Shown here piece after piece: positions 31,827-38,033 of a stretch of 39,128 nt of DNA. The notes beneath the pieces are model-generated. The model ran no database searches. It was not told the origin of the DNA and worked only from the letters and a program-made list of their open reading frames with translations. The stretch comes from Pedobacter sp. (GTDB lineage Bacteria > Bacteroidota > Bacteroidia > Sphingobacteriales > Sphingobacteriaceae). A program made the position numbers and the translations under genes. Where the stretch lies: contig SEDG01000002.1 in assembly GCA_004295885.1 (NCBI GenBank), forward strand, positions 1-39,128. Reading direction: 5' to 3'. Every line of letters begins with the position of its first letter. The first letter of the stretch is position 1.

Positions 31827-32213
31827 TACAATAGTCTTGCACATAAGTAGTGTTCGGGGTGGCAAATTTAACAACCACCCCAACCTTATGAACCTAAGAT
31901 CAATTTTTTTAAGTTTTAATTTAACTACAAAGCCAATCAAATCAATACCTCTTTGATTTAGAAACATAAGCTTTGGGTCATTATTTATGACCTTTGGCCA
32001 AAAAATGGCCAGACTAGGTCGCTTGGCAATTTGCCGACCAAGCGCAGGATCATACAAATTGAAACAAACATTTCATTTGTAAGCTGATAGAATCCATCAT
32101 GTGATGTTGGCCATGACAATCCGCCCAAAAATCTTCCAATACTGATTTATCCAATATTAATACAAGCTCCCCAAAAAGTTTGCACGTATAAATTTAATTT
32201 CGGGCGTGAAAGA

Positions 32214-32389
32214 TTCCAGTCTTTTGGTAGGAGCTCACCTGAATTCAATCCATTTTCAAGACAAGGCTTTGCGAACAAAAATACCTCGCGAGCAAGGCGA
32301 GCAGGGAAGATTTTTGTGATGCAAACCCGCAGGGCATGGCCTTGGCGGAAAATGGATTGTTCATAATTTTGCCTACTAAAAGGCTGGAA
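32214..32389. other. Large imperfect hairpin (structured DNA or ncRNA candidate) downstream of relaxase gene
   Basis: Nested complementary segments: 32214-32231/32372-32389 (18 bp, two G-T wobbles), 32247-32257/32348-32358 (11), 32262-32267/32339-32344 (6), 32268-32272/32321-32325 (5), 32275-32282/32310-32317 (8), 32285-32289/32297-32301 (5). Confidence 0.8.
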
Positions 32390-32446
32390 GGTTTGTGGCA
32401 AACCAATTATTGTTCCTGAACGATTCATCCGGCAGACCTAATACCA

Positions 32447-33334
32447 TTAAATACCCCTCTCTTGAGATTGCGCCCTTTTCTTCCTCACCACCATTGACCC
32501 TGTGTCATCATGATATTCTTCCTTTAGCAATATATCCAGGTATTCCGTCTGGTTTGCGGGGGCAGCGAAATCTCTTTCTTTTTTGGATTCATGTGAAGAT
32601 TGCATACGCTCCCTTTCAAGCTCCACCTTTTGTTCTACAGTCCCATTCTTCTGGACGTTGGCATAATGAAAGGTATCCTTCAATCCACGATCAAAGCCAA
32701 AATACTGGTCGAATAATTTTTCACCTGATTCCTTAAAAGCGACACGGTTGAACTGCCCAAGCTTCTTGGAATGCTCGAGATTCCTTCCCCTGGACTTGTT
32801 CATGGGGCTGAGCTTGATGGTATTGGTAATGTCTTTCCTGCTTACGATTATCTGAACATGCATCTGCTTGCCCGGCTTTGCTTCTCCTCTTTTCTTTGTG
32901 CGACTTTTTACCTCGGCATCTTTATGTGTATAGTACCGGTGGTTTTCTAGCTTACCGAACCACAAGAGGTCTTTTTCGCTTTCTATTCCGGGACGGTTGA
33001 AGTTCTTAGCATATTCATCCATCACCTTGATGCAAAATTCCTTTAGTCCCTCTCCCATTTCCTCCTCTCCAAATTCTTCGTTCAGGAAAGCGATTTCCTT
33101 CTGGCTCGGATTGATGTTGACCAAGAAGAATTTTGCATCATCCCTGCACAGCTTGGCAATATTATTATCCAGCGCGTGCTTTACCTTGTAAGACCTGATA
33201 TCATCATTCTCACCATTGAACCAGAATTCAGGGTCCTGGTCAAAAAGCCTGTTCTCCTTATCAAGGTAGTGCACCAATTGCCCACTGCTGCCCTTGTTGT
33301 TTCCCGTTTCGCTACCGGTAATGTTGATGAACAT
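32447..33334 (-). CDS. DUF5712-like mobilization protein/relaxase
   Basis: 'MFINITGSETGNNKGSSGQLVHYLDKENR', 'HVQIIVSRKDITNTIKLSPMNKSRG'; downstream of the BfmA-like gene. Confidence 0.82.
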   Translation of the reverse strand: MFINITGSETGNNKGSSGQLVHYLDKENRLFDQDPEFWFNGENDDIRSYKVKHALDNNIAKLCRDDAKFFLVNINPSQKEIAFLNEEFGEEEMGEGLKEFCIKVMDEYAKNFNRPGIESEKDLLWFGKLENHRYYTHKDAEVKSRTKKRGEAKPGKQMHVQIIVSRKDITNTIKLSPMNKSRGRNLEHSKKLGQFNRVAFKESGEKLFDQYFGFDRGLKDTFHYANVQKNGTVEQKVELERERMQSSHESKKERDFAAPANQTEYLDILLKEEYHDDTGSMVVRKKRAQSQERGI

Positions 33335-33336
33335 AT

Positions 33337-33912
33337 CTAGAGTATTTCTACCTGTCTCCTGGTTTCAGAAACCAGCTCCTCTTTTTCCTTTCCATTCAAA
33401 AACCCACCTATATTTTCACGTGACGTGATATAATTGTTCAATATATAGAGGAACCTTTGTTTGAGCTCAGCTTTTCCATCTTTTCTTGTGTGTAAACTTC
33501 TTAACTGATGATAGATATCTGTTAACTGCAGCATTTGTTTTTTATGTTCTTCCCTTTGCGCCTGATTGGCCTGCAGGACCTGCACATTTATTGCCTTTAG
33601 GATTTTCTCCTGTAGCTGGAGACCTTCATCTGTTTTCTCGTTGATCGGGAGCAGAAATATTTTTTCCTGTGCCTTCAAAAAACTGATCTGGTTTTGGCTG
33701 TGCTTTAGAATTGAATTTTTCAGCATATCATCATTTAGGTCTATTGGATCCTTTTTGGTTCGATAGAAATAATCCACCATTTGTTCAAGTACCAGCATTT
33801 TTGACCTGCCCAGCTTGATGGCAAGTTTCTGGAATTTCTCGTCTACGGCAATTGAGAAACGGATTGACTTCTCCGCTGGTTTACCCATTGTTTTATCTTC
33901 AGATATACTCAT
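33337..33912 (-). CDS. BfmA/BtgA-family mobilization protein
   Basis: 'EKSIRFSIAVDEKFQKLAIKLGRSKMLVLEQMVDYFYRTKKDPIDLND'; immediately upstream of the relaxase. Confidence 0.8.
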   Translation of the reverse strand: MSISEDKTMGKPAEKSIRFSIAVDEKFQKLAIKLGRSKMLVLEQMVDYFYRTKKDPIDLNDDMLKNSILKHSQNQISFLKAQEKIFLLPINEKTDEGLQLQEKILKAINVQVLQANQAQREEHKKQMLQLTDIYHQLRSLHTRKDGKAELKQRFLYILNNYITSRENIGGFLNGKEKEELVSETRRQVEIL

Positions 33913-33998
33913 AAGTATATGGTTTTAATGTTTAGCGCTCTTTAAGAAAGGAGAAGTATACTCGGGGTATACTTCAAACCCCCAAAGCGCAGCGTGGG

Positions 33999-35291: not shown

Positions 35292-35978
35292 TCATAGGCC
35301 CAGGCCCCCATCCAGTTCAGTTCCCTTTTTTCTTTTGATTCCAAGGTAGTTTGTTTTATCCAGAGTTACTGACCTGCTCCTTTCAAGCTCAGCCAAGCTC
35401 TTAACGGATTTTTTTTCAAACCACTTGGCCTTGTCATCCAAGATCTTCAGTTCGTTATCCACTTTGTGATAATAGGCGATTATCGGGGCCGTCCCTATGA
35501 CACTGGTATGAGCAAACAAGATATGGTCATACAGTCCAAGATTCTCCCTGACCCGCCTAATTCCCTCTTTCATGTTAAAGTTGATTGTATCGATCGGAAC
35601 ATTGTGGCCTCCAAGAGCAAACCTAGTCTTCACCCTTGCACGGGAATTCTCTAGATCATTCAACCCAAAATATAACAAGGTGCTTTCGTAGCCCGCATGC
35701 TTGAATTCCAGAGAAATTTCCGATGCCATATCATTGGCATAATTGGTTTCAAATCCAAAATTCAATCTGTTTTTAATTGCGTGGTCCTTATCCTTTTCAA
35801 GTTGCATGGGCACGCCGCCCGCAAGTTTCTGTGGATCGTATGCTGGGTATTTTTTGACGAGCCCTGCAAAAATAAGGTCCCCATTGAATATCTCGGTACC
35901 AGCAGGCACATACATATGCCCATAAAGACTCTTGCCGGCACCATTTGGTCCGGCAATAATTACAAACTGAGGCTTCAT
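35292..35978 (-). CDS. Zeta-toxin-like P-loop kinase
   Basis: 'FVIIAGPNGAGKSLYGHMYVPAGTEIFNGDLI' (Walker A), 'NFGFETNYANDMASEISLEFKHAGYESTLLYFGLND'; start adjusted to MKPQFVIIAG, 2 nt after the upstream stop. Confidence 0.85.
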   Translation of the reverse strand: MKPQFVIIAGPNGAGKSLYGHMYVPAGTEIFNGDLIFAGLVKKYPAYDPQKLAGGVPMQLEKDKDHAIKNRLNFGFETNYANDMASEISLEFKHAGYESTLLYFGLNDLENSRARVKTRFALGGHNVPIDTINFNMKEGIRRVRENLGLYDHILFAHTSVIGTAPIIAYYHKVDNELKILDDKAKWFEKKSVKSLAELERSRSVTLDKTNYLGIKRKKGTELDGGLGL

Positions 35979-35980
35979 GA

Positions 35981-36430
35981 CTAATGAATTGAATGAAGAA
36001 GATATGACCAATATCCCTTCCCTGGGCCCAAAAGGTTCTTCATCAAGATATACTCATCGGTCTGTAAATCTAGGTAAACAAGATCTTCAGAGCCATCTGG
36101 GTTCGCCCTTACAAATTCCTTGTCCTTGGTTCTCTCATCGCGGTAGAACATTGGCACGCCTTTGGAAAATGCCTCCCTATGGATATCCTCTGTCACTTTG
36201 GCCGCCATCTTATTGGTTTCGGCAATCGTATGCCCATTGGGCAGAATGGTCTGTAGTGCCTCCATTTCTTCCTCCCTTGCCAACTGTACGTCATTAAGGT
36301 AATTGGAAAGTGCAGAATTTGGCTTCAGGTTTTCCTGTAGTTCTTTGATATCTTCAGCTTTGATGACAAGGGCGGAAAGCATTCCCTCCTCGTTTCTGAG
36401 TTCTTTGAATTTCATAACACTGGTGTTCAT
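35981..36430 (-). CDS. Hypothetical protein; candidate antitoxin partner of the zeta-like toxin
   Basis: 149-aa ORF whose stop is 2 nt before the toxin ATG; no recognised domain. Confidence 0.6.
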   Translation of the reverse strand: MNTSVMKFKELRNEEGMLSALVIKAEDIKELQENLKPNSALSNYLNDVQLAREEEMEALQTILPNGHTIAETNKMAAKVTEDIHREAFSKGVPMFYRDERTKDKEFVRANPDGSEDLVYLDLQTDEYILMKNLLGPGKGYWSYLLHSIH

Positions 36431-36494
36431 GGCCTATACAAATTTAATGATTTAAAATGATTTTGTGAATTTGGATCTTTAACATAAATGTGGA

Positions 36495-37721
36495 CTAAGC
36501 TGTATACATCTTCTCCCTGAGCTTTTCCATATCGCTGCCCACTTTTGTGTCCATCACCTTGGCATAGATCTGCGTGGTTCGGATATCCGTATGTCCAAGC
36601 ATCTTGCTGACACTTTCTATCGGCACGCCCTGTCCAAGAGTCACCGTAGTGGCAAAAGTGTGCCGTGCAATATGGAAGGTCAACAGTTTTTCAATACCGC
36701 AAAGATTGGCCACCTCCTTAAGATAGGCGTTCATCTTCTGGTTGCTCGATACAGGAAGTACCCTTTCATTTACCATGCAATCTGCATGTTCGCTGTACTT
36801 TTCCTTGATCCCAAGCGCAATTGGAAGAAGCGGGACGTGTGAGGCCACCGCCGTTTTCTCCCTTTTGATAAAGATCCACTGCCTGCCGTCCATACCTTTC
36901 TGGATATCGGACCTGCTCAGTTTCTGCACGTCGATAAATGACAGGCCGGTATAGCAGCAGAACAGGAATACGTCGCGCACCTGACAGATACGGGCATTGG
37001 ATATCTCCTTTTGATAGAGTAGGGATAGTTCATCCTCCGATAGCTTTACCCGTTCCACTTTCTTGAGCTTGTTCTTGTGGCCGGAAAATGGATCATGTGA
37101 AATCCATTTTTTTGCCAAGCATTCCCGCAGGATCTTACCTAGGTTCTTCAGGTGCTTGATGGCTGAATTGTTTGCACAGCTGCAGGTACTCCTCAAGTAG
37201 AAATCAAACTCGGTGATGAAATGGTATTCGATCTTCTTGATCTCTATATCGGAAATCCTAAAGCGTGCCCTCATGAAAGCTTTCAGGTGTTTCTTTGTCG
37301 TATTGTACTTAGTCAATGTTCCCTTGGTGAAACCCTTGCCGATTAGGGCCTCCAGTTTATCGTTATGCTCCTGAAAGACCTCCAACAAGAGGTGCGGCTT
37401 TTCCTTCTTGCCAAGGAAGGTATTGAGGATTGTTTCAGGACTGATCTCAGAATCTGACCTGAGTAGCTTCAGGTGGATATCCTCGATCTTCATCCGAAAG
37501 GTGTCGACATAGGCGTTCAGGTTCTTTGACGCCTCATCCCTACCATTCGCCCTTCCCACCTTGTTATTCCATCGTTTTGGTTCGCAAGGCCGGCCGATCG
37601 AAAGTTCCTTGGGTGTGCCACCAAGGGTGATTCTCATATAGATGGGCATCGGGCCAGATTGATAGTTCTTGGGCTTCTTCAGATAGAAGAGCACGTTTAA
37701 GTTTTTTTTCATAATACGCAA
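36495..37721 (-). CDS. Tyrosine-type recombinase/integrase
   Basis: C-terminal 'HIARHTFATTVTLGQGVPIESVSKMLGHTDIRTTQIYAKV'; N-terminal arm and SAM-like core; adjacent to the tRNA attachment site. Confidence 0.95.
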   Translation of the reverse strand: MRIMKKNLNVLFYLKKPKNYQSGPMPIYMRITLGGTPKELSIGRPCEPKRWNNKVGRANGRDEASKNLNAYVDTFRMKIEDIHLKLLRSDSEISPETILNTFLGKKEKPHLLLEVFQEHNDKLEALIGKGFTKGTLTKYNTTKKHLKAFMRARFRISDIEIKKIEYHFITEFDFYLRSTCSCANNSAIKHLKNLGKILRECLAKKWISHDPFSGHKNKLKKVERVKLSEDELSLLYQKEISNARICQVRDVFLFCCYTGLSFIDVQKLSRSDIQKGMDGRQWIFIKREKTAVASHVPLLPIALGIKEKYSEHADCMVNERVLPVSSNQKMNAYLKEVANLCGIEKLLTFHIARHTFATTVTLGQGVPIESVSKMLGHTDIRTTQIYAKVMDTKVGSDMEKLREKMYTA

Positions 37722-37840
37722 TTAAAAGTTAAACAAAATTGCCATTTACTACACAAATCGTCAAGATGTCCATCGATAGAACTAGTTGAAGGTCAGTATT
37801 TTAACCCCTAATTCGTGAGTGCTGTTTTTCGCAAGTGGTG

Positions 37841-37857
37841 ACTCACGAATTACTCAC
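37841..37857 (+). repeat. Subterminal 17-bp repeat, right copy (candidate integrase arm/Xis site)
   Basis: ACTCACGAATTACTCAC, also at 170-186; inverted half-copy ATTCGTGAGT at 37811-37820. Confidence 0.75.
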
Positions 37858-37901
37858 GAAAAAAATGGGAAAACCTGTATATTTTGGTGTGGGCTGAAAA
37901 C

Positions 37902-37937
37902 AAAAAAGCCTGTTTTCATACGAAAAACAGGCTTTTA
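37902..37937 (-). terminator. Element-borne terminator downstream of tRNA-Asp
   Basis: AAAAGCCTGTTTT-CATACGA-AAAACAGGCTTTT, perfect 13-bp stem with T-tract on the minus strand. Confidence 0.75.
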
Positions 37938-37958
37938 AATGATTTGGTAGTTAAACCA

Positions 37959-37972
37959 GCGGACCGGACGGG
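37959..37972. repeat. Right attachment-site core within tRNA-Asp 3' end
   Basis: GCGGACCGGACGGG identical to 96-109. Confidence 0.85.
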
Positions 37973-38033
37973 ACTCGAACCCGCGACCTCCGCCGTGACA
38001 GGGCGGCATTCTAACCAGCTGAACTACCGATCC
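37960..38033 (-). tRNA. tRNA-Asp (anticodon GTC), CCA not encoded
   Basis: Minus strand GGATCGGTAGTTCAGCTGGTTAGAATGCCGCCCTGTCACGGCGGAGGTCGCGGGTTCGAGTCCCGTCCGGTCCG; 7-bp acceptor stem GGATCGG/CCGGTCC; T-arm GGTTCGAGTCC. Confidence 0.95.

Follow-up and report, generated by a model that had tools for sequence, protein, structure and literature searches.

A likely single-stranded-DNA promoter and priming hairpin in conjugative and mobilizable islands of Bacteroidota

The window (the whole stretch of 39,128 nucleotides of Pedobacter sp. DNA analyzed here) contains a mobilizable island of the MobB/BfmA type, in which the hairpin under study is located. Coordinates are those of the window, and the mobilization genes and island features are as follows.

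32447..33334, − strand: MobB family relaxase, DUF5712 (Pfam, E = 2.6e-91; NCBIfam NF041495)
33337..33912, − strand: BfmA/BtgA family mobilization protein (NCBIfam NF041200)
33953..33975, no strand assigned: tentative candidate oriT, an inverted repeat (GAAGTATAC-TCGGG-GTATACTTC) read from the sequence, intergenic and upstream of the BfmA/MobB operon
36495..37721, − strand: tyrosine integrase of the island (Pfam)

The integrase is adjoined by a tRNA gene (37960-38033, Rfam). Together with a zeta-toxin-like gene, these two occupy positions 35292-38033 and form one end of the mobilizable island. As the initial annotation had described, the hairpin lies downstream of the relaxase gene, 57 bp beyond its 3′ end. 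Leftward of the hairpin is GH26 glycosidase cargo in the opposite orientation, with no leading-region gene directly in front.

Folding of both strands was compared with that of shuffled controls, using RNA and DNA parameters. The + strand of positions 32200-32420 folded as RNA at −84.7 kcal/mol (z = −5.5), with none of 200 shuffles as good, and the − strand gave z = −3.6. With DNA parameters, the + strand of positions 32209-32395 folded at −44 kcal/mol (z = −6.0), and the − strand gave z = −5.2. The hairpin was thereby confirmed at 32214-32389, where it had originally been drawn. The + strand is designated the “folding strand”, and the parts of the hairpin are listed below.

32214..32389, + strand: whole hairpin element (RNA and DNA folds, covariation)
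32214..32231, + strand: outer stem, left arm; predicted template arm of a leftward transcript (DNA fold)
32232..32239, + strand: left side of the internal loop, AGCTCACC (DNA fold; TCACC/TCTCC conserved in relatives)
32246..32257, + strand: middle stem, left arm, CAATCCATTTTC, 12 bp, paired with 32348-32359 (DNA fold, covariation)
32285..32301, + strand: apical stem-loop CTCGC-GAGCAAG-GCGAG (sequence; variable in relatives)
32326..32334, + strand: side mini-hairpin CCC-GCA-GGG with a GNA trinucleotide loop (DNA fold; conserved in relatives)
32342..32344, + strand: tentative candidate −33 TTG, 19 nt upstream of the −7 box (18-23 nt in relatives)
32348..32359, + strand: middle stem, right arm, GAAAATGGATTG (DNA fold, covariation)
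32364..32371, + strand: right side of the internal loop, TAATTTTG, matching the sigma-A −7 box TAnnTTTG (DNA fold; conservation, strand asymmetry, flavobacterial consensus)
32372..32389, + strand: outer stem, right arm (DNA fold)

Several details of the structure differ from those first proposed. An internal loop is indeed present, but in the DNA fold its 15/13 nt resolve into an 8 × 8-nt loop, a 4-bp step (TGAA/TTCA, pairing 32240-32243 with 32360-32363) and a TT bulge. A junction stem (CAAGGC/GCCTTG) sits above the 12-bp middle stem, and the inner stem is composed of TTTGC/GCAAA and an A-run/T-run. The segment previously taken for a 13-nt bulge (CCCGCAGGGCATG) is actually the conserved mini-hairpin CCC-GCA-GGG plus CATG, which makes the junction a three-way junction. 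The 18-bp outer stem exists as described; in relatives only its T-run/A-run part (“helix 1”) is well conserved. The sequence also contains the second small hairpin, GGTTTG-TGG-CAAACC at 32390-32404, which falls outside the conserved element. Note also that CAAAAATCTTCC at 32126-32137 is a perfect 12-nt complement of a conserved hairpin segment (GGAAGATTTTTG, 32305-32316) and would permit an alternative pairing; the complement was absent from every genus copy checked and was taken as chance.

A single copy of the element is present in its own genome. Searches with blastn gave matches in 35 of 150 genomes, own genome included, and covariance model R1 located the element in 67 of 150 same-genus genomes and in 18 of 399 genomes of the phylum. 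Model R2, which was built with distant copies included, found it in 39 of 396 genomes of the class (32 of 195 genera) and in 51 of 151 genomes of the family (15 of 25 genera). The elements that carry the hairpin are conjugative and mobilizable islands. No Rfam 15 family scored above cut-off, a blastn comparison with 72,556 plasmids gave no match at 1e-5, a phage search with the window copy returned nothing, and the exact pattern of the distant core was not found in viral contigs. A near-perfect palindrome (L100) was a false positive of model R1, and one blastn match (L082) is probably false as well. The outer-stem 18-mer was also tried as a marker; it had 17 scattered genome matches, of which the one checked, in Algoriphagus, was without the core, and it is not diagnostic alone.

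The apical loop is enlarged by 40-80 nt in some distant copies (L088, L093, L103, L125 and L132), with the core intact. At the left end of L039, L045, L048, L053 and other genus copies, the outer stem overlaps a palindrome (GGCAGGAG-CCTCCTGCC) that is followed by TTTTTG. This palindrome looks like a + strand terminator and could compete with that stem; the window copy does not have it. One genome (G964) holds four copies of the same score (C5, C7, C25 and C26), which suggests that this host carries several related mobile elements.

In the alignment of 29 genus copies, 27 pairs had changed on both sides, compared with 15.7 ± 2.1 in shuffles and 15 or fewer in slid structures; the copies share descent, and counts across them are therefore not independent observations. 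Covariation in the homologues is strong. The middle stem (“helix 2”) showed compensatory change at 10 of 16 pairs in this alignment. For a mixed set of genus and distant copies, compensatory change was seen in 38 of 45 pairs and the covariation score was 0.42, versus at most 0.09 for slid structures, where the alignment had been fitted to the structure and is hence biased towards it. An RNAalifold consensus did not recover the outer stem, because the lengths of its arms vary. A MAFFT alignment of the core (A4), in which the inner stem was mis-registered, was left out.

The 8-nt right side of the main internal loop, TAATTTTG, perfectly matches the −7 box of sigma-A in Bacteroidota, for which the consensus in F. 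psychrophilum is TAnnTTTG at −12 to −5 (PMC9723704). Among 28 distant or named copies, 22 had TAnnTTTG on the folding strand and none had it on the opposite strand (shuffles: mean 3.95, maximum 10), and a perfect box is missing in about a quarter of the distant copies. Loci fetched later gave 17/24 versus 0/24, counting two that repeat earlier ones (L119 = L085 and L126 = L089). The corresponding position in the 29 genus copies has the sequence (G/T)AnnTT(T)(G), with G replacing the first T of the box in 27; despite being unpaired, the A and the TT after nn do not vary. The box is mostly unpaired in the window copy and in L084, L090 and L114, and is paired within the hairpin in ssb-type copies. 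Many copies have a TTG 18-23 nt upstream of the box, a spacing too variable for a firm −33 box. Read as a double-strand promoter, the −7 box faces away from the conserved operon described below, into variable sequence. For a conventional leftward promoter, 41 of 46 copies of the genus set have no TAnnTTTG within about 260 nt.

Usually a copy closely precedes genes whose transcription leads out from the base of the hairpin, namely ssb, ardA, radC, DUF6943 or a DUF932 operon. Most genus copies directly front a leftward operon encoding an acidic protein of ∼195 aa, a 68-aa protein and a DUF932 protein, and have on their other side either cargo or the 3′ end of a CTnDOT-type tra operon (TraM, TraJ and neighbors). 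By hand count, the nearest left gene points away from the element in about 40 of 45 genus copies; no co-oriented gene adjoins the window copy or genus copies L041, L044, L047 and L076. Among distant copies, the first co-oriented leftward gene is SSB in L094 and L098 (Pfam) and, by likeness to these, in L091, L095, L107 and L108; it is ArdA in L104, L110 and L140, and RadC in L090 and L130. DUF6943 is repeatedly the first downstream gene (14 copies: L087, L088, L093, L101, L103, L109, L122, L123, L128, L129, L131, L134, L138 and L141), with several of these assignments resting on likeness only. A copy in a B. ovatus ICE has JAB and ArdA genes leftward, and copies in P. distasonis ICEs front PcfK/PcfJ or ArdA operons, the model score being weak for the ArdA-operon copy (L115). 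The genes ssb and ardA count among the classic genes of leading regions (PMC9849209, PMC11541004), and a location upstream of such genes characterizes the family, not the window copy. We regard DUF6943, for which the literature search returned no paper, as a candidate early establishment or anti-defence gene.

From these data we consider that ICEs and mobilizable islands of Bacteroidota likely use the element in single-stranded DNA, as a promoter and priming signal similar to Frpo and sso. The fold could instead be a single-strand origin read by a primase of the DnaG/primosome type and not by RNA polymerase, in which case it would prime the complementary strand without serving its neighbors as a promoter. 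Such an origin would suit a branched ssDNA fold in conjugative elements, the invariant core outside the promoter box (CAAG.. / GGAGATTTT / GNA hairpin) and copies of the window type, which have no early genes in front. We nevertheless judge it unlikely, since neither the strand-specific sigma −7 box nor the repeated siting before co-oriented ssb, ardA, radC and DUF932 genes would be explained.

Base-pair composition was used to ask whether the fold is one of DNA or RNA. The curated stems (mid, inner and side helices) comprised 1083 Watson-Crick, 19 G-T and 11 A-C cells, a wider set comprised 1358, 53 and 24, respectively, and a crude arm-to-arm alignment gave 58 G-T versus 97 A-C. Wobble asymmetry was discarded as a test for the functional strand: the ratios (58 to 97, 19 to 11 and 53 to 24) pick no strand, and wobbles are simply scarce. 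The G-T wobbles that were at first taken as a sign of selection on RNA or single strands do occur in the window copy, but they are not a feature of the family. Of 39 copies, 30 have a side loop of three nucleotides, which conforms to GNA in 28 of these 30; C-GNA-G is an exceptionally stable DNA mini-hairpin. Scarce wobbles and GNA loops favor a DNA fold, short of proof.

These values bear on the possibility of a structured RNA, that is, a 5′ leader or small RNA by which the leftward operon would be controlled, or an antisense RNA transcribed from the box as an ordinary double-strand promoter. The strong RNA fold and the position just upstream of genes would agree with this explanation, which we find quite unlikely given the few G-U cells, the GNA loops and the absence of an Rfam match. 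In addition, the strand that folds better is not that of the operon mRNA, and a double-strand promoter at the box would point away from the conserved operon. The conserved ncRNA suggested in the initial annotation is accordingly disfavored, because covariation is of the wobble-poor Watson-Crick kind and the box points towards the conserved genes only in the folded single strand.

A double-strand regulatory site, either an operator palindrome or a terminator between tra and leading operons, is very unlikely. It would account for inverted repeats, for the many copies situated between the end of tra and the leading operon, and for the terminator-like palindrome adjoining genus copies. However, nested covarying arms of ∼140 nt and a conserved branched junction would be superfluous for an operator or terminator, and the loops are conserved too.

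To assess how the hairpin is oriented relative to transfer, the closest gene for a relaxase (PF03432 or DUF5712) was located on the contig of each copy, up to 130 kb away. In each of the 22 elements that could be tested, this gene was on the strand opposite to the folding strand, and in 21 of the 22 it lay to the right. Two Bacteroidales ICEs, from B. ovatus and P. distasonis, have tra in inverted orientation with respect to the element, but their mobABC keeps the opposite-strand rule. Relaxase genes are typically located in the lagging region (PMC11541004). With oriT upstream of the mob genes and the relaxase lagging, the folding strand is therefore predicted to be the transferred strand in every architecture, including that of the window.

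The same survey of relaxases speaks against an oriT or relaxase-binding hairpin. In the window the hairpin is only 57 bp from the relaxase gene, as such a site might be, but most relaxases are 8-120 kb away, and the element is common to two unrelated relaxase families (PF03432 and DUF5712) and so is not specific to one relaxase. An oriT is moreover expected upstream of the mob genes, where the separate inverted repeat lies, and we hold this explanation to be highly improbable. Of the “transfer/oriT-related” fold originally suggested, the oriT part is thus not retained, and a single-strand promoter and priming signal fits more specifically. The transfer-related ssDNA fold is supported by the island context, the strand opposite to the relaxase, a −7 box on the folding strand exclusively, and the ssb, ardA and radC neighbors. 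A non-autonomous hairpin mobile unit (MITE), also proposed at the outset, can be set aside: the element is palindromic, about 176 nt long and present in up to five copies per genome in some relatives, but it is single in its own genome, its copies keep a fixed place and orientation in conjugation modules, and its outer ends are the least conserved part where conserved ends would be expected.

If the element is a single-strand promoter and priming signal, the following sequence of events is envisaged. The + strand, as the predicted transferred strand, would enter the recipient single-stranded and fold into the hairpin. The right arm would then present the host sigma-A −7 box TAnnTTTG, which in the window copy would be pre-opened in the 8 × 8 internal loop. 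RNA polymerase would bind and use the left arm as template, with the transcript leaving the hairpin base leftward along the transferred strand. This transcript would prime the complementary strand and would also be the early mRNA of leading-region genes (ssb, ardA, radC, the DUF932 operon or DUF6943) where such genes lie leftward. Protective genes would in this way be switched on before double-stranded DNA exists, and double-stranding would abolish the hairpin and turn the promoter off. Use of RNA polymerase, the start site, priming and on/off switching are predictions of this model, as is the identity of the transferred strand. The window copy probably acts mainly in priming rather than in gene expression, because it has oppositely oriented GH26 cargo, and no leading-region gene, in front.

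Single-strand promoters of the Frpo/ssi type occur in F, ColIb-P9 and related plasmids (Masai and Arai, 1997; PMC9849209, PMC11541004). They are ssDNA hairpins that rebuild a sigma-type promoter, and they precede ssb, ardA and further leading genes, which are oriented for transcription from the predicted transferred strand. The Bacteroidota element resembles them in each of these respects, being a stable ssDNA stem-loop with a host sigma box. It differs in having no detectable sequence similarity by plasmid blastn, a −7 box (open-looped in some copies) instead of −35/−10 elements, and a three-way junction with a GNA mini-hairpin, and it belongs to another phylum, where ICEs and mobilizable islands carry it. 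The sso of rolling-circle plasmids and sso1 of ICEBs1 (PMC4595007) are likewise strand-specific folds of about 150-200 nt, present in a conjugative element and expected to prime the second strand; a structure that is conserved and strand-specific, in elements with an ssDNA stage, is also what was found here. The sso1 of ICEBs1, however, consists of three stem-loops similar to those of pBAA1, whereas the Bacteroidota element is one long branched hairpin and is usually placed like a promoter before genes. A third comparison is with 6S RNA, a cellular RNA whose long hairpin has an internal loop that mimics an open promoter. The Bacteroidota element shares this form but has no Rfam match, is patchily distributed in mobile elements, and yields evidence that points to DNA.

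The element would work like Frpo and sso, but it has no detectable similarity to known plasmid elements, a branched core of its own and a Bacteroidota box, and is therefore placed outside the Frpo sequence family. In its main text, a large survey of single-strand promoters in leading regions (PMC11541004) makes no mention of Bacteroid*, and no single-strand promoter or sso for Bacteroidota ICEs was found in the literature searched, many subscription papers lying outside it. On balance, we favor the view that ICEs and mobilizable islands of Bacteroidota have in common a family of ssDNA promoters of their own, in which second-strand priming is coupled to immediate expression of establishment and anti-defence genes and in which the unusual sigma-A box of this phylum is, for some copies, pre-opened in a hairpin loop. 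If this is true, the element would mark unknown early genes, among them DUF6943 and the DUF932 operon with its first protein of ∼195 aa. Bacteroidota ICEs carry much of the gene traffic in gut, soil and aquatic Bacteroidota. The element may provide a testable handle on how the incoming single strand is made double and protected: it predicts the transferred strand, and it points at candidate establishment and anti-defence genes such as DUF6943.
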